A DNA stretch of 64,000 nucleotides from Verrucomicrobiota bacterium (GTDB taxonomy: Bacteria; Verrucomicrobiota; Verrucomicrobiia; Verrucomicrobiales; DEV007): assembly GCA_030625775.1 (NCBI GenBank), contig DAOUQC010000012.1:1-64000 (forward strand), written 5' to 3'. The notes under the pieces were generated by a model. The model saw nothing but the letters and a program-made list of their open reading frames with translations, made no database searches and was not told where the DNA came from. Positions 51,831-59,286 of the stretch are shown here, piece after piece (the first letter of the stretch is position 1; each line of letters starts with the position of its first letter). Both the position numbers and the translations under genes were made by a program.

Positions 51831-51899
51831 GCCAAAAGCAGCGATATTAGATTAAAAGGAGTGCTCGCACGATAGGGGAGATGGTTGGATCCCAATCAT

Positions 51900-51929: not shown

Positions 51930-51947
51930 TTGAAACGGAAAGAGAAC

Positions 51948-52550
51948 ATGAAAAGCGGAATACAATTTGCAATCACATTGGTGGGCGTCTTTCTGATGGT
52001 CACTACGGCAGCAATGGCTCAAAAAGGGCAGCCGTCAGTTAAAATCAAGAAAATCGGTGTAGAGCTTCAGCCAACTCCCAATTTTGAGGCGGGGGGCGCG
52101 AAGTCAAAAAAGATTCCACGACAGAAAACATGGCTTGAGGTGGAGGTTGAGTTCCAGGTTAAGGGGGGGAATAAAGCGGGCATCGTATCTGATTTGCAGT
52201 TTCGCTATTATGTTGCTCTCAAAGGAGAAGATGGTAAAACCCGGCTGCTGACAGGGGATGTGAATCATGTGAACTTACTGGAGGGCGAAGACTTGTTTTC
52301 TGTGATCTACCTGTCGCCGACAACTTTGGGCACAGTGACGGGAGATTTCAGGAATTTTCAGAAGAGCTCTATCAATGCGGTTGCGGTTGAGGTTTCTTAT
52401 AACGGTCGCGTAATTGATACAAAATCTGATGGCCCGCAGAGTCGCTGGTGGGAGGGCTTATCAGCCGAGCAGGGAGTATTGACCAAAGGAAAGACACCGT
52501 TTGCACTTCTCTGGATCGACCGTTATGCGGATGTGAAGGAAAGTCGCTGA
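51948..52550 (+). CDS. Exported beta-rich protein, Amuc_1102-like position in the pilus-like cluster
   Basis: 200 residues with a signal peptide (SGIQFAITLVGVFLMVTTAAMA) and a beta-rich domain: SVKIKKIGVELQPTPNF ... TWLEVEVEFQVKGG ... DLQFRYYVALKGEDGKTRLLTGDVNHVNLLEGEDLFSVIYLSP ... INAVAVEVSYNGRVIDTKS. It occupies the place of Amuc_1102, whose structure is an immunoglobulin-like fold; the link rests on synteny and character, not a residue-level match. GGAAAGAG precedes the ATG. First gene of five on one strand. Confidence 0.7.
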   Translation: MKSGIQFAITLVGVFLMVTTAAMAQKGQPSVKIKKIGVELQPTPNFEAGGAKSKKIPRQKTWLEVEVEFQVKGGNKAGIVSDLQFRYYVALKGEDGKTRLLTGDVNHVNLLEGEDLFSVIYLSPTTLGTVTGDFRNFQKSSINAVAVEVSYNGRVIDTKSDGPQSRWWEGLSAEQGVLTKGKTPFALLWIDRYADVKESR

Positions 52551-52603
52551 GGCAGAGTTAAGGTTAATTTTCACAATTTTCGCAGTTTTATTTATTACAC
52601 TCG

Positions 52604-54343
52604 ATGGCTGATAATAAGTCACTGATCGCCGTTACCGTTGGTTCGCAAAATGTATCTGCTGCTGTCTTTGCCGAGACAGGACGTGGGGGGTTGCAGTTGC
52701 AGAGGCACCAAATTGAAGAAACCCCGGGTGAAGAAATTTCCCAGGTTGCCGTTCAGGCTGCTCTGACGAGTGTCGCTTCGAAGTTGAAGATCAAAGGGCG
52801 GGCGGTTCGCTATGCGATTACCAGTCAGCCGGTTTTTATTCGTTTTGTGAAGCTGCCTCCGCTGGATGTGGATCAAGTGGATCAGATCGTCGAGTTTGAA
52901 GCCCAGCAAAATGTTCCCTTTCCTATTGATGAAGTGACATGGGGTTACCAACTCATGGGTAAGGACAGCGGCTCCGAAGTTGATGTCGTGCTGGCTGCGA
53001 TCAAGTCGACAGAGCTGGATGAAATTGACGATTCAGTTGCAGCTTCGGGGTTGAAAACCACGGGGGTCGAGGTTTCTGCGATGGCGATTTATAATGCCTA
53101 CCGTTTTAATTATTCGGACATTGAAGGCACTACCTTGCTGATTGATATCGGCAATAAGACTACCAATCTGATTTATTGCGGCGCCAAGGGGGTGTTTGTT
53201 CGTACCATCAAAATTGGTGGATCGGACATTACCAAGGCTATTGCCAAGGAGTTCAATGTTTCTTTTGACGAAGCGGAGCAGCGGAAAATCGTTGATGGCT
53301 TTGTAGCTCTGGGAGGTGCTTACGCTGATCATGAGGATCCTGTTATTGCGGGTGTTTCCAAGGTGATCCGCAATACGCTGACCCGCCTGCATTCTGAAAT
53401 CATGCGGACGACGAATTTTTATCGTAGTCAGCAGGGTGGGGATGCACCGACGGTCGGCTTGCTTTGTGGAGCGAGTGCGGCCTTGCCGTTTTTACGTGAG
53501 TTTTTTGCGGAAAAACTTCGCATCCCGATCGATTATTTTAATGCCTTTCGCAACGTAACCCTGGGAGCAGGTATAGATCGAGAGGCTTTGGTCAAGCTTG
53601 CCCATGTTTCGGGAGAGCTGGTGGGGATTGCCCTGAGGGAAGTAGGTGAGTGTCCATTGGAGCTTGAGCTGGTGCCGGAATCCGTCGTGGAGGAGAAGGA
53701 ACTTGCAAAGCGTAAGCCTTTATTGTGGGCAGCTACCGCGGCATTGGTTTTGGTGGTGGCTTCACTGGGATTTTACTTTAGTCAGGCTGCGACGATTGCT
53801 ACGGCGCAAACCGAGGGGCTGCGCTCTGACGTGGAAGAGTTGACCGGCTATGATGGCAAGATCCAAGTGTGGAAAGACAAGTTGTCTGATCTTGAAGCGA
53901 CCAAACGTCCTTACACGGACGCTGTGTATGCGAGAACTTATTGGGTGGGATTGTTCAATGACTTGAGTCGCCGGATGGACAGCGACTTGATGTGGATCAC
54001 GATGATTGAACCTATGGCGGAAGGGCAGCCTGTGATTGAAGATTTATTCGAGCTTTCCGAGCTTGCACTGGAGGCTCCTGCAGTAGGTGGAGCCCAGGAT
54101 GGGAAAAAAATGATCGACACGCTTCATATCCGTGGTTTGTATCGAGAAAATGAGGGGGGGCCCAAGGTGGTGTATGATTATTTGGATGAACTGGTTAAAT
54201 CCAATCGTTTTGCTTTGGAAGGATTGGATACCAATAGTATTTTAAAAGAGGTGGAAGCCGGAGCTGGTGGCAGTAAATATGCCTGGAAGTGGGAAATGAT
54301 ATTACCGCTGCCTGAGGGCTTACAGATCTCTTTTACGAAATGA
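52604..54343 (+). CDS. pilM: PilM-like actin-fold ATPase fused to a PilN-like segment (Amuc_1101-like)
   Basis: 579 residues. Residues 1-350 form a PilM fold: AVTVGSQNVSAAVF (phosphate 1), FVKLPPLDVDQVDQIVEFEAQQNVPFPIDEVTWGYQ, LLIDIGNKTTNLIY (phosphate 2), IKIGGSDITKAIAKEFNVSFDEAEQ, and LCGASAALPFLREFF (adenosine). After ~365 there is one membrane helix (PLLWAATAALVLVVASLGFYF) and a periplasmic helical/ferredoxin-like end as in PilN. Joining PilM and PilN in one chain is a marked difference from canonical type IV pilus operons. It likely ties cytoplasmic ATP binding to the envelope assembly. Confidence 0.88.
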   Translation: MADNKSLIAVTVGSQNVSAAVFAETGRGGLQLQRHQIEETPGEEISQVAVQAALTSVASKLKIKGRAVRYAITSQPVFIRFVKLPPLDVDQVDQIVEFEAQQNVPFPIDEVTWGYQLMGKDSGSEVDVVLAAIKSTELDEIDDSVAASGLKTTGVEVSAMAIYNAYRFNYSDIEGTTLLIDIGNKTTNLIYCGAKGVFVRTIKIGGSDITKAIAKEFNVSFDEAEQRKIVDGFVALGGAYADHEDPVIAGVSKVIRNTLTRLHSEIMRTTNFYRSQQGGDAPTVGLLCGASAALPFLREFFAEKLRIPIDYFNAFRNVTLGAGIDREALVKLAHVSGELVGIALREVGECPLELELVPESVVEEKELAKRKPLLWAATAALVLVVASLGFYFSQAATIATAQTEGLRSDVEELTGYDGKIQVWKDKLSDLEATKRPYTDAVYARTYWVGLFNDLSRRMDSDLMWITMIEPMAEGQPVIEDLFELSELALEAPAVGGAQDGKKMIDTLHIRGLYRENEGGPKVVYDYLDELVKSNRFALEGLDTNSILKEVEAGAGGSKYAWKWEMILPLPEGLQISFTK

Positions 54344-54368
54344 AATTCGTGCAAGCTTGTTTGATTTG

Positions 54369-55406
54369 ATGAAGGGAAATCAATTTTATACCGTATTTGG
54401 AATCGTAAGTGCAGTCCTGCTGGGGGCCGCTGGATTCTATTGTTACAAGGGATACAGTTCTTATCAGGAGGCAGGTGGAGAGTTTAATACTCGCCGCACG
54501 GCTCTGTTGCGACTGAAGCGCAGCGAGCCCTATCCCAACGAGGAGAATCTGGGGAGAATCGAAAAAGAGGTAGGCGAATATGAGGGAGAGATTAACAGTT
54601 TGTTCAAGATCCTGGATCGCTTCCAACAGCCTCTGAACGGGAATATCAATGATACCCAGTTCCCGCAGATCCTGAAGTCAAAGATTGAAGCTTTCAAGGC
54701 TCTGGCTAAGAAAAAAGGTATCACAATCGAAGAGGAGAAGGAGTTCTATATGGCGATGGATGCCTATCGAACCACCCTGCCGAATCCCAAGGCGGTTCCC
54801 TTGCTCGATTACCAATTGGGGGCGATCGAATATTTATTGAATATTCTGGCCGAGGCTGGTGTGACCCATTTGATTAATTTAGATCGTGAGTTGTTGCCGG
54901 TGGAGATGGCTGAAGGAGGAGCCAAGGAGGCTCCGGTTGACAGTTCATCGGTGGCTGCCAAGTATCCGGTGAGTCTGACTTTCGAAACCAAGCACCCTGC
55001 ATTTGAGCGATTGGTGAACCAGATCACTAACGATGATAAGTACTTTTTTATTCTGAGAGCCCTGAGGGTGGATAACAACGCAAAAGAAGGGGCGACGAAG
55101 GGCGAAGGGGATGATGCCAACAGTGGTCCCCGCTATGTGAATGCTTCAGGTGAAGAGGCACCGGAGGATTTGATCAACAAGATTCCCCAGGGATTGGAGG
55201 TGCCGGCCCAGGTAGCGTGGATGAGGGATAACGGGGGCTATGAATTGCAGAGCAGTGATGCACGGATTTTGCTTGGAGATGAAAGCCTGAGGGTATTTAT
55301 GGTGATTGATTTGGTTAGATTTGCCGATGCCTCGGAAAAAGTTGCCAAGGATGAAGGGGAGGAAAAAAAAGAGCCAGGCGGCAAAGGAGAAAAGGCAAAA
55401 AAGTAG
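54369..55406 (+). CDS. Amuc_1100-like pilus-associated envelope protein
   Basis: 345 residues from the ATG at 54369 (a TTG at 54357 is also in frame). An N-terminal membrane helix (about 7-27) leads to a coiled-coil (about 30-110) and two beta-alpha domains. From memory of Amuc_1100, matching positions are SLVNKLAECGL-like EYLLNILAEAGVTHLINLDRELLPVE, the YPVSLTFETKHPAFERLVNQITNDDKYFFIL block and the closing GDESLRVFMVIDLVRF. The fold is related to PilO/PilN. The acidic/Lys-rich tail (KVAKDEGEEKKE) is different. Amuc_1100 is known as a TLR2-active surface protein in Akkermansia; here the role is structural by inference. Confidence 0.8.
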   Translation: MKGNQFYTVFGIVSAVLLGAAGFYCYKGYSSYQEAGGEFNTRRTALLRLKRSEPYPNEENLGRIEKEVGEYEGEINSLFKILDRFQQPLNGNINDTQFPQILKSKIEAFKALAKKKGITIEEEKEFYMAMDAYRTTLPNPKAVPLLDYQLGAIEYLLNILAEAGVTHLINLDRELLPVEMAEGGAKEAPVDSSSVAAKYPVSLTFETKHPAFERLVNQITNDDKYFFILRALRVDNNAKEGATKGEGDDANSGPRYVNASGEEAPEDLINKIPQGLEVPAQVAWMRDNGGYELQSSDARILLGDESLRVFMVIDLVRFADASEKVAKDEGEEKKEPGGKGEKAKK

Positions 55407-55477
55407 TTGATGGATTGAAGTGAATGGATGGGCCCGGGAGAAAGGGGTCGATGAGAATTGAAGGGTAACAAAGAAAG

Positions 55478-56449
55478 ATGGATATTTCCAAAGACTGGGA
55501 AAAATTGGTTTTGATTGTGGTAGCGTTGTTAACGCTGTTCCTGGCGCAATCCTATATCAGGCAGAGCACAGCTTACGGCAGTAAGTTTGAGATTAAATCT
55601 GTGGTGCCAAGTAATGAGTTGCCTGAGATGGAAAAGGAAACGGTGGTGACTTCGAGGAATCTGGTTGAGCAGAAGTCCCTGTGGATTCCTCCGGAAAGAG
55701 GAGATCCTCCAAGGCCGATTCCGCTGTTCAAGTCGATTACAATTGTTGAGATTCAGGGTAAATTGGTCGATATGAGTAAAGAAAAGCCGGTAGTCAGGCC
55801 TCCTGCCAGTAACCGGTGGCTGCTGGAGCATGAACTCGATTTTTTAAATTCCAATGTTCTGGAGCAGGATCCGGATGGGGACGGTTTTTCTTCGCTGGAA
55901 GAATGGAATGCTAAAACTTCCCCTCGCGATCCGTCCTCGCACCCGCCCTTTGCAGGCAAACTGGTTCTCATAGCCCAGCGGCAGAAAAATTATATTTTGG
56001 AATTTGCCGCACAACCGGATGAAGAACGTTTTCAGATCATTCGCCACCCCAGCAGCGGACAGAAGCGCGGGACTTTTATCATGCGTAAAGGGGAAACCTC
56101 TCCTGACAAGGTATTCCGGATTGATGGTTTTGCCAAAAAACAGGCTGTCAGCAATTTGGGAATCAAGGTGGATGCTTCGGAATTGTCGATCACTTATCTG
56201 CCGGATGGACGGAGTGTAAAGCTGGTCAGACGGGTGAAAGAGACTATTCCAACCTTCTTCGGGCAGTTCAAATTGATGCTAAAACCTGACACCGATGAGT
56301 TTTATGTGCAGAAGGGAAAGACCTTCCGTTTGCCAATTGACCCTGAAACAGAGTATAAACTCATTGACATTGACCCCGAAAAAGCGGTAATCTCCTTCGA
56401 ATCTGAGCCTGGTAAGGAAGTGAAGATTGAAATCAAGCTCAGGAAGTAG
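55478..56449 (+). CDS. Amuc_1099-like envelope protein with DPDGDG calcium-loop
   Basis: 323 residues with one N-terminal membrane helix (about 9-27) and a periplasmic beta-rich part. The segment FLNSNVLEQDPDGDGFSSLEEWNAKTSPRD is a thrombospondin-3/EF-hand-like calcium loop. The remainder resembles PilP-like domains but is not recognised. It lies between the Amuc_1100-like gene and the secretin, as in Akkermansia. Confidence 0.75.
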   Translation: MDISKDWEKLVLIVVALLTLFLAQSYIRQSTAYGSKFEIKSVVPSNELPEMEKETVVTSRNLVEQKSLWIPPERGDPPRPIPLFKSITIVEIQGKLVDMSKEKPVVRPPASNRWLLEHELDFLNSNVLEQDPDGDGFSSLEEWNAKTSPRDPSSHPPFAGKLVLIAQRQKNYILEFAAQPDEERFQIIRHPSSGQKRGTFIMRKGETSPDKVFRIDGFAKKQAVSNLGIKVDASELSITYLPDGRSVKLVRRVKETIPTFFGQFKLMLKPDTDEFYVQKGKTFRLPIDPETEYKLIDIDPEKAVISFESEPGKEVKIEIKLRK

Positions 56450-56479
56450 CCAGTTTTAGTGACAATTTTGATATAAGCA

Positions 56480-59212
56480 ATGACTTTGCTGCCGGCAATG
56501 GTGGTGGGTTTCTTATTTTTTATAAACATGAAAAGCGCGTTGAAATACAGCAAAAGTAATATTGGAATCGGTCGCAGCGTAAAGCTGGCCGCCTTTACAG
56601 GTGTCATGGCTTCCGTATTTGTATCCGGATCAGAAGTTCGTGCGGAAGCGGGTGGCGGTGCTGCCGGCGGAGTAGGAGGTGCACCCGGAGTGGCGAGTCG
56701 CTACGTGATCAGACTGCAGGAACGAGTGAGGAAAGCAGATGAAGCGGCCCTCCGTGGATCCCAGTTGCTCGCCGATGGTGATTACGAAGGAGCTATCCGG
56801 GAGTTTCGGGCGGCTTTGGATTTGTTGCCGGATGCTCCAATGACCAAGGATCGTCATGACGCCTATACCCGCTCTTATGCCAATGCGAGTGTGAAACTGG
56901 CTCGCCAGCGTGCCGAGGAAGGCCGTTATCCCGATGCTATCCAGTTGGTTGAGAATGTATTGGCTCCGACGGTGGACCCAGACAATATCGAAGCCAAAAA
57001 ATTATTGGAGCAGTTGAATGATCCTGAATATTATTCACCAGCCATGACTCCGGAATACCTGGCGAAAGTCCGGCGTGTTGAGTTGGCTCTCAAAACGGCT
57101 CAGGGTGCAATGGATCTAGGTGATTATGATCGAGCCGAAAGCGAGTATTTTGCGGCTTTGAATGACGATAATTATAATGAAGCATCACGACGGGGCTTGG
57201 AAGAGAATGCCCGATTGAAAACGAATTACGCCAATGCGGCTCGCAATCACACCCGGGCTGATTTTTTACAACAGGTGGCAGCTAGTTGGGAATTGCCTGT
57301 GCCGACCCGGATTAGGAGTGGTTTGGAGATTGGGCCAGTGGTTGCAGAAGACGGGACTGCTGGAGTGGCTTATATCGAGGACAAACTGAAAAGCATCATC
57401 CTGCCAAGTGTGGAGTTCCAAGACACTCCTTTGAAGGATGCGGTGGCCTTTCTTCAGGAGAGAAGTGTGGAACTCGATGTTAGAGAGAATGATCCTGCAA
57501 GGAAAGGGATCAATTTTATTCTACAAATTGATAGTGGAGGTGGAGCGGCAGCACCTGCAGCACCTGCAGCTGATGCAGGAGGTTTTGATGATGCAGCTGG
57601 CGGCGGTGGTTTTGGCGGTGGAGGTGGAGGTGGCGCGGCAGATGCGCCAATTACCTTGAAACTCACCAACGTGCCATTGGTCACGGCTCTTAAATACACG
57701 GTGTCATTGGCTAACTTGAAATACAAAGTGGAGCCTCATGCCGTGCTTATTATACCAATTTCCACACCGGACACTGACCTTTTCACCAATGTGTATGTCG
57801 TGCCTCCCACTTTTCTGTCAGCTGGCGGCGGCGGTGACGGCGGCGATGGCGGGGCAGCAGCCGACCCCTTTGCAGACGATAGCGGTGGCGGCGGCTCTGG
57901 ACCCAAGGCGAGGAGTACGGCTAAAGATATTTTGATTGAAGCCGGGGTGACTTTTGCACCGGGCACAAGTGCCATTTACAATCCGGGCACATCCCAGTTG
58001 ATCGTGCGCAATACGCAGGACCAGATTGAGCTGATCGAAGCCTATATCGACTCGATTAAAGGCAAAGCCGAGAAGCAGATTTATATCACTTCCAAGTTCA
58101 TTGAAATTGCCCAGGATAATACTGACGAGTTGGGCTTTGACTGGTTGATGGGAGGATTCAACATTGGCGGCAACAAGGTTTTTGGAGCTGGTGGAACGGA
58201 TGGAAACGGAGTTCCAACTAATCAGGCGGATTATTCTTTCAACGCTCCTGGCAGCACGACTCCGGTGGGCACCAATCCGATCACCGCCGGAAACCGCAGT
58301 GGTGACCTGGCTCTGGCTAATGACAGCATTAACGGTTTGATTAATAATGCGAATGACATCGTTACTTCCAGCACGGAGCTTTCCAAAGCACCGGGCGTGT
58401 TTGGTATTGCAGGAGTCTTTACGGATCCTCAGTTCCAGGTGGTGATACGGGCTTTGGCACAGAAGAAGGGAGTTGACCTGATGTCCGCTCCGAGTGTGAT
58501 GGCGCGTAGTGGACAGCGAGCTAAAATCGAAGTGATTCGTGAGTTCATCTATCCCACGGAATACGATCCACCGGAAATTCCCAATCAGATTGGGTCGACA
58601 ACTGGCATTGGTGGCGGCAGCGGTGGAACGATTCCAGTGACTCCGGCCAACCCGACAGCTTTCGAAACGCGTAACACTGGTGTGACGCTGGAAGTTGACC
58701 CTGTTCTCGGGGCGGATGAATTCACTATTGATTTGAGCCTTTCTCCGGAGGTGGTGGAGTTCGACGGCTTCATCAACTACGGCACACCGATTTTTTCGGG
58801 TGCTACAAGTGCTTTGGGGGGGCAGTCAATACTGACTACTAACCGTATTTTGATGCCTGTTTTTGCAACTCGCAAAGTGACTACCCAGGTGACCATCTGG
58901 GATGGCCAGACGGTTGCGATTGGTGGTCTGATGCGTGAGGATGTGCAGGACGTGGAAGACAAGGTTCCTGTGGTGGGAGATTTGCCCTTGGTCGGACGTT
59001 TGTTCCGCTCCAGTTCCGAGCAGCATTTGAAACGCAATCTGACGATTTTTGTGAAAGCGGTGATCATGGATCCAGCGGGAGCAAGGTATCACGTGCCTAC
59101 GGCTGAGCAGGACTCTAACGCACCACTTGATATGACGGTTCCAGGCTTGGCCCCAAGACCGCCAGTTGAAGTGATCGGACCGGTTGGATTGGGCGGCGGT
59201 TTCACGAAATAG
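56480..59212 (+). CDS. Secretin (GspD/PilQ-like) outer-membrane channel, Amuc_1098-like
   Basis: 910 residues (a start at the ATG at 56528 would place the signal peptide more naturally: MKSALKYSK ... VSGSEVRAEA). An N-terminal TPR-like region (DGDYEGAIREFRAALDLLPDAP; LGDYDRAESEYFAALNDDNYNEA) is followed by N0/N1-like modules separated by two glycine-rich linkers (about 371-389 and 448-476), and the secretin core with FDWLMGGFNIGGN, MSAPSVMARSGQRAKIEVIREFIYP, TRKVTTQVTIWDGQTVAIGGLMRED and VPVVGDLPLVGRLFRSS. It should form the outer-membrane ring of the assembly. Last gene before the terminator. Confidence 0.92.
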   Translation: MTLLPAMVVGFLFFINMKSALKYSKSNIGIGRSVKLAAFTGVMASVFVSGSEVRAEAGGGAAGGVGGAPGVASRYVIRLQERVRKADEAALRGSQLLADGDYEGAIREFRAALDLLPDAPMTKDRHDAYTRSYANASVKLARQRAEEGRYPDAIQLVENVLAPTVDPDNIEAKKLLEQLNDPEYYSPAMTPEYLAKVRRVELALKTAQGAMDLGDYDRAESEYFAALNDDNYNEASRRGLEENARLKTNYANAARNHTRADFLQQVAASWELPVPTRIRSGLEIGPVVAEDGTAGVAYIEDKLKSIILPSVEFQDTPLKDAVAFLQERSVELDVRENDPARKGINFILQIDSGGGAAAPAAPAADAGGFDDAAGGGGFGGGGGGGAADAPITLKLTNVPLVTALKYTVSLANLKYKVEPHAVLIIPISTPDTDLFTNVYVVPPTFLSAGGGGDGGDGGAAADPFADDSGGGGSGPKARSTAKDILIEAGVTFAPGTSAIYNPGTSQLIVRNTQDQIELIEAYIDSIKGKAEKQIYITSKFIEIAQDNTDELGFDWLMGGFNIGGNKVFGAGGTDGNGVPTNQADYSFNAPGSTTPVGTNPITAGNRSGDLALANDSINGLINNANDIVTSSTELSKAPGVFGIAGVFTDPQFQVVIRALAQKKGVDLMSAPSVMARSGQRAKIEVIREFIYPTEYDPPEIPNQIGSTTGIGGGSGGTIPVTPANPTAFETRNTGVTLEVDPVLGADEFTIDLSLSPEVVEFDGFINYGTPIFSGATSALGGQSILTTNRILMPVFATRKVTTQVTIWDGQTVAIGGLMREDVQDVEDKVPVVGDLPLVGRLFRSSSEQHLKRNLTIFVKAVIMDPAGARYHVPTAEQDSNAPLDMTVPGLAPRPPVEVIGPVGLGGGFTK

Positions 59213-59258: not shown

Positions 59259-59286
59259 AAAGGGGCTGAGTGATCAGTCCCTTTTC
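59259..59286 (+). terminator. Intrinsic terminator of the pilus-like operon
   Basis: Stem AAAGGGGCTGA / TCAGTCCCTTT (one G-T pair) with GTGA loop, then TTCC; 47 bases after the secretin stop. Confidence 0.8.

Follow-up and report, generated by a model that had tools for sequence, protein, structure and literature searches.

The five-gene operon described here is best explained as encoding the inner-membrane alignment platform together with the outer-membrane secretin of the type IV pilus of the phylum Verrucomicrobiota, a reading to which we assign a probability of about 0.86. The motor genes stand apart from the platform operon and yet are present in the genome, and a type IV pilus is the best reading of this machine. 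In the mechanism that we propose, PilB ATPases and PilC would assemble the filament from prepilins encoded elsewhere (here at G000:C54, G000 being the genome of the window and the window being the whole 64,000-nucleotide stretch analysed), the filament would pass through the 1098 secretin, and PilT, where present, would retract it (the genes are paired here, at G000:C134 and C44). The 1100 protein (PilO/GspM place) and the 1099 protein (PilP/GspC place) would sit between platform and secretin, and the 1102 protein would be a secreted accessory protein, not a pilin. The pilus would attach to and pull in polymers such as mucin, fucoidan and other glycans. This is its likely job to judge from published work on Akkermansiaceae, in which the MUL2 locus was tied to mucin use, pilus-type attachment and glycan uptake, and fucoidan uptake was shown in marine members of the family (PMC13174399).

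Operon layout and family assignment

Five open reading frames on the forward strand at 51948-59212 encode, in this order, relatives of Amuc_1102, 1101, 1100, 1099 and 1098. The features are listed below, with scores and cut-offs of the NCBIfam models.

about 51881..51899, + strand: weak dyad, ATGGTTGG-ATC-CCAATCAT, upstream of the operon, a putative signal
51948..52550, + strand: Amuc_1102 relative (NF042424, 140.7 bits, cut-off 55)
52604..54343, + strand: Amuc_1101 relative (NF045709, 642.1 bits, cut-off 650), PilM-PilN; from profile and joint alignments, PilM part at residues 1-350, INLLP-like joint, transmembrane (TM) helix at about 373, then PilN-like periplasmic part
54357..55406, + strand: Amuc_1100 relative (NF038287, 192.4 bits, cut-off 180)
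55478..56449, + strand: Amuc_1099 relative (NF042425, 183.6 bits, cut-off 50)
56480..59212, + strand: Amuc_1098 relative, TPR plus secretin (NF042912, 974.2 bits, cut-off 750)
59259..59284, + strand: intrinsic terminator hairpin followed by TTTT (stem 59259-59269/59274-59284)

Four of the five proteins (1102, 1100, 1099 and 1098) exceed the curated cut-offs, and the 1101 relative, 8 bits under its own, aligns with positions 1-603 of the 608 in the profile. The open reading frames and family matches thus bear out the preliminary description of this DNA, which listed five genes on one strand in the Akkermansia order. The terminator that it placed after the operon is likewise well supported (dG -20.2 kcal/mol, z -4.5, with none of 200 shuffles folding equally well). 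The dyad that it placed before the operon is present but weak, since the 39-nt stretch gave dG -14.3 and z -2.6 when folded against shuffles and the repeat finder missed it. As the start of the 1102 gene, ATG at 51948 is preferred over TTG at 51930 because the Shine-Dalgarno sequence GGAAAGAG precedes the ATG.

The closest known system is the Amuc_1098-Amuc_1102 cluster of A. muciniphila, or MUL2 (PMC5332112; PMC13174399), which has the same five families in the same order and on the same strand. The gene upstream of the window operon encodes an NAD-dependent sugar epimerase/dehydratase-like protein, and coaE (dephospho-CoA kinase) and rho follow downstream; the window thus has the arrangement of MUL2-type loci, in which 1102-1101-1100-1099(-1098) share a strand and are followed by coaE and rho; the legend of Fig. 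2B of PMC13174399 lists these two neighbours as well. The two systems differ in that the window host, correctly taken from the outset to be a non-Akkermansia member, belongs to another family of the same order, and in that its 1100-type protein shares about 20% identity with the Akkermansia-type counterpart (alignment row L056). In contrast to Akkermansia, the organism of the window has, to our knowledge, no link to the gut.

The PilM-PilN fusion and the position of Amuc_1100

The 1101 relative passed the PilM model TIGR01175 (138.2 bits, cut-off 133), and T2SSL matched its N-terminal half with E 0.007 only. A profile made from 18 Amuc_1101 relatives matched two chains of 3JC8, a solved type IV pilus machine: PilM (3jc8_Ma) over the first 351 positions, with E 4e-71, and PilN (3jc8_Na) over positions 356-482, with E 2.4e-9. 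The INLLP motif is the PilM-binding motif of PilN. The profile also aligned with 5EOU, deposited as a single chain in which PilN is linked to PilM, through the end of that chain, and the INLLP peptide of 5EOU falls on the fusion joint of Amuc_1101. Among the relatives the joint residues are INLLP, VNLLP, MNLLP or related ones (LELVP in the window), the TM helix at about residue 373 comes after the joint, and the fusion is present in 18 of 18. When the C-terminal part was compared by hhalign with 19 targets, unrelated ones included, E. coli HofN (PilN) ranked first (p 1.5e-4), followed by the two GspL tails of the genome itself (p about 0.002); the Pfam PilN model gave no match to 1101. By these alignments PilM and PilN are truly fused in the 1101-type protein, with the joint falling exactly on the INLLP motif, and the fusion noted in the preliminary description is borne out by the two 3JC8 matches, the joint and the hhalign ranking. 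Its predicted layout, with a cytoplasmic actin-like part, a TM helix and a periplasmic part in a single chain, is that of GspL. As PilM and PilN are in one chain, the cytoplasmic PilM ring has a covalent connection across the membrane, which is also the case in GspL.

Compared with the PilM-PilN-PilO-PilP-PilQ set of type IVa pili, PilM, PilN and the secretin are matched by sequence, the gene order corresponds to (MN)-O-P-Q, and PilB, PilC, PilT and prepilins are encoded in the genome of the window. The differences are that PilM and PilN form one protein, that the PilO and PilP models miss the window 1100 and 1099 proteins, that the 1099 protein carries a calcium-binding TSP3-like motif and repeated beta modules, and that an extra gene, 1102, heads the operon.

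The 1100 relative has an N-terminal TM anchor, with ATG at 54369 as the likely start. The window protein matched the solved Amuc_1100 with E 1.4e-12 as a single sequence, and the Amuc_1100 family profile did so with E 1.3e-77. Pfam PilO gave no match to 1100 and none over the cut-off in whole genomes, and the best of the 19 hhalign targets for 1100 was the genome's own GspM-like protein, at a weak p of 0.0025. AlphaFold models of 1099 and 1100, made from only two-sequence alignments, reached a pLDDT of 36, too low for use. Gene order, topology and the fold similarity of Amuc_1100 to type IV pilus and type II secretion proteins stated in a review (PMC13119276), rather than Pfam, point to the PilO/GspM place for 1100, and Amuc_1100 is best read as an inner-membrane-anchored part in this position.

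Descriptions of Amuc_1100 commonly present it as a protein of the outer membrane or the pilus with host activity. Its place in a PilM/N-O-P-Q operon, together with the uncleaved-looking N-terminal anchor, predicts instead an inner-membrane, periplasmic part of the platform, in most of the phylum, and in that case the host activity would be incidental or would come about via cell breakage or vesicles. Because relatives are found in 188 of 241 genomes of the phylum, we infer that the ancestral job of Amuc_1100 was structural, in the pilus platform, in agreement with the structural origin proposed in the preliminary description.

Motor genes, distribution and competing readings

PilB, PilT and pilin genes are absent within or directly beside the operon in this window. 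Their absence, noted in the preliminary description, holds for this immediate neighbourhood but not for the genome, where the search detected ten T2SSE matches, a pilB-pilB-pilC-prepilin cluster (C54), the paired PilT genes at C134 and C44 and 23 prepilin-motif matches. The TIGR02538 (PilB) scores of 615 and 588 bits lie below the cut-off of 676, as in nearly all genomes of the phylum. No better-matching canonical pilM-N-O-P-Q operon was found elsewhere in the genome, the window PilM being its only clear PilM, and each checked genome has one clear PilM. Akkermansia-type genomes share the C54 cluster, with PilC about 60% identical, and conservation with Akkermansia rather than physical linkage is the basis on which the motors of this genome are putatively assigned. 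The assignment (pilB-pilB-pilC-prepilin and the pilT pair) points to genes for testing mucin capture by a retractable pilus in Akkermansia. Other secretin/pseudopilin clusters of this genome lie at C121, C26 and C125, the last two being separate T2SS-like clusters. The C121 cluster (L021:3737-16881) is of mixed T2SS/T4P character: it encodes a GspD/PilQ-like secretin, ATPases resembling PilB and PilT, a PilC and small prepilins; no secretin of this type was found in A. muciniphila.

In a survey of 241 Verrucomicrobiota genomes, members of the 1102, 1100 and 1098 families were found in 98, 188 and 191, respectively, and PilT in 231, including A. muciniphila, the thresholds differing between family searches so that these counts are only roughly comparable; 1102 is less widespread than 1100 and 1098. 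Seven genomes lack PilB, and both 1100 and 1098 are absent from all seven (Fisher p about 1e-5), an association that rests on about two independent losses since the seven come from only two families. One surveyed genome, G113, is identified as A. muciniphila because its Amuc_1100 is identical to the solved protein at 287 of 287 residues; its only two secretins are both of Amuc_1098 type, and just two pairs of T2SSE ATPases exceed the cut-off, one of PilB and one of PilT. The genomes G116 and G208 (about 2.1-2.4 Mb) have a single secretin each, that of the operon, together with PilB-type ATPases, and PilT above the threshold was detected in neither.

The gene-neighbour comparison suggested by the preliminary description, here of 25 loci including the window and other classes, gave the complete order 1102-1101-1100-1099-1098 in 18, with the core in order in the other seven; the order 1101-1100-(1099)-1098 is kept throughout the phylum. 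Five of the seven lack only a detected 1102, the G205 locus is 1101-1100-1099 with no adjacent secretin, and the G208 locus is 1101-1100-1098. In the latter (2.1 Mb genome; L079:8897-10555), where 1102 was undetected, a 552-residue 1100 reading frame directly precedes the only secretin and is perhaps an 1100-1099 fusion. Synteny within Verrucomicrobiales was already known, having been published in 2026: among 352 Akkermansiaceae genomes other than A. muciniphila, 266 carried MUL2A and MUL2B, and the locus is frequent in other Verrucomicrobiales, less so in Chthoniobacterales and absent in Methylacidiphilales (PMC13174399). The family profile extends the core operon across the phylum. What the present analysis adds is the survey of the whole phylum, the joint of the fusion, the assignment of the motors and, as its most useful and testable result, the reading of Amuc_1100 as an inner-membrane-anchored part in the PilO/GspM position.

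The preliminary description raised the possibility of a distinct envelope-spanning machine. In such a reading there would be no pilus, and the PilM-like and secretin parts would be reused as a channel for export or import that lacks a PilB/PilT motor. The lack of motor and pilin genes in or beside the operon of the window agrees with such a channel, as do the few genomes with 1100, 1098 and PilB in which PilT gave no match above the threshold. However, in each of the genomes examined closely the genes for motors and prepilins lie elsewhere, the operon is missing from all of the PilB-lacking genomes, and in A. muciniphila the motors and prepilins have no other secretin to serve and are the sole partners available; we regard the channel as improbable and the claim as unsupported.

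Equally improbable in our estimation is a T2SS-like system, in which the fused, GspL-like platform and the secretin would push a short pseudopilus for the secretion of enzymes. Its attraction lies in the likeness of 1101 to GspL of the GspL-GspM-GspC-GspD set (actin-like cytoplasmic part, TM helix and periplasmic part in one chain), in the weak first rank of the GspM-like protein for 1100, in the anchor of 1099, which is a bitopic TM helix as in GspC and not a lipoprotein signal, and in G116 and G208, which retain the system without detected PilT. The sequence of 1101 is nevertheless PilM-like and not GspL-like, with TIGR01175 over its cut-off in the N-terminal half, and the genome has T2SS-like clusters of its own. 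PilT is a retraction motor that is not used in type II secretion; its presence in this genome and in nearly all of those surveyed, among them that of A. muciniphila with no other secretin for it to serve, argues against a T2SS-like system.

The 1099, 1102 and 1098 proteins and the wider platform

We tentatively extend the type IV pilus reading, at odds clearly below even, to a lineage-specific platform that would stand between type IV pili and type II secretion in architecture and would serve as a phylum-wide retractable device for glycan capture, with Amuc_1100 as an inner-membrane-anchored PilO that is not surface-exposed. Such a platform would comprise the covalent PilM-PilN, a calcium-binding PilP-like subunit and, in Verrucomicrobiales, usually a second paralogous secretin.

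In the 1099 relative the TM anchor is followed by a TSP3-like calcium-binding motif, DPDGDGFSSLEE, and then by two beta modules that are alike (internal repeat p 1.5e-5). Pfam TSP3_bac was found in 11 of 18 Amuc_1099 relatives, and the Amuc_1099 profile gave only weak EF-hand-like matches in the PDB. PilP and GspC were not matched by 1099 either in Pfam or by hhalign against GspC and HofP, and it is its position that suggests a location between platform and secretin corresponding to PilP/GspC. Distant Amuc_1099 relatives (L070-L075) carry a CxxC...CPxC zinc-ribbon-like motif ahead of the calcium motif.

The 1102 relative is a secreted Ig-like protein with a Sec-type signal, and the Amuc_1102 profile matched the solved Amuc_1102 (7DSZ) with E 6.6e-58. 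Since none of 13 Amuc_1102 N-termini, inspected by eye in the alignment, shows the type IV prepilin motif, the sequence of this protein does not justify the name pilin.

The 1098 relative is by its domain matches (Pfam Secretin, 110 bits, and TPR_14) a secretin with TPRs and stands in the PilQ position; the PilQ model itself gave 100.5 bits, below its cut-off of 284. All sampled genomes from the order of the window host carry two or three Amuc_1098-family secretins, and most others have one. In the genome of the window a second one (G000:C126:67949-70498, or L017:7949-10498; 846 bits, cut-off 750) follows the operon at a distance of about 9 kb, just past the window end. Large multipass proteins are encoded beside Amuc_1098-type secretins (L017:5805-7802, L070:12511-14577, L073:13380-15545, L074:12943-15033 and L075:13842-15887). 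The first of these, in the genome of the window, is a PMT_2-domain glycosyltransferase, and those of distant classes, of about 690 residues, look by eye oligosaccharyl- or mannosyltransferase-like; these neighbours are possibly pilin-glycosylation enzymes.
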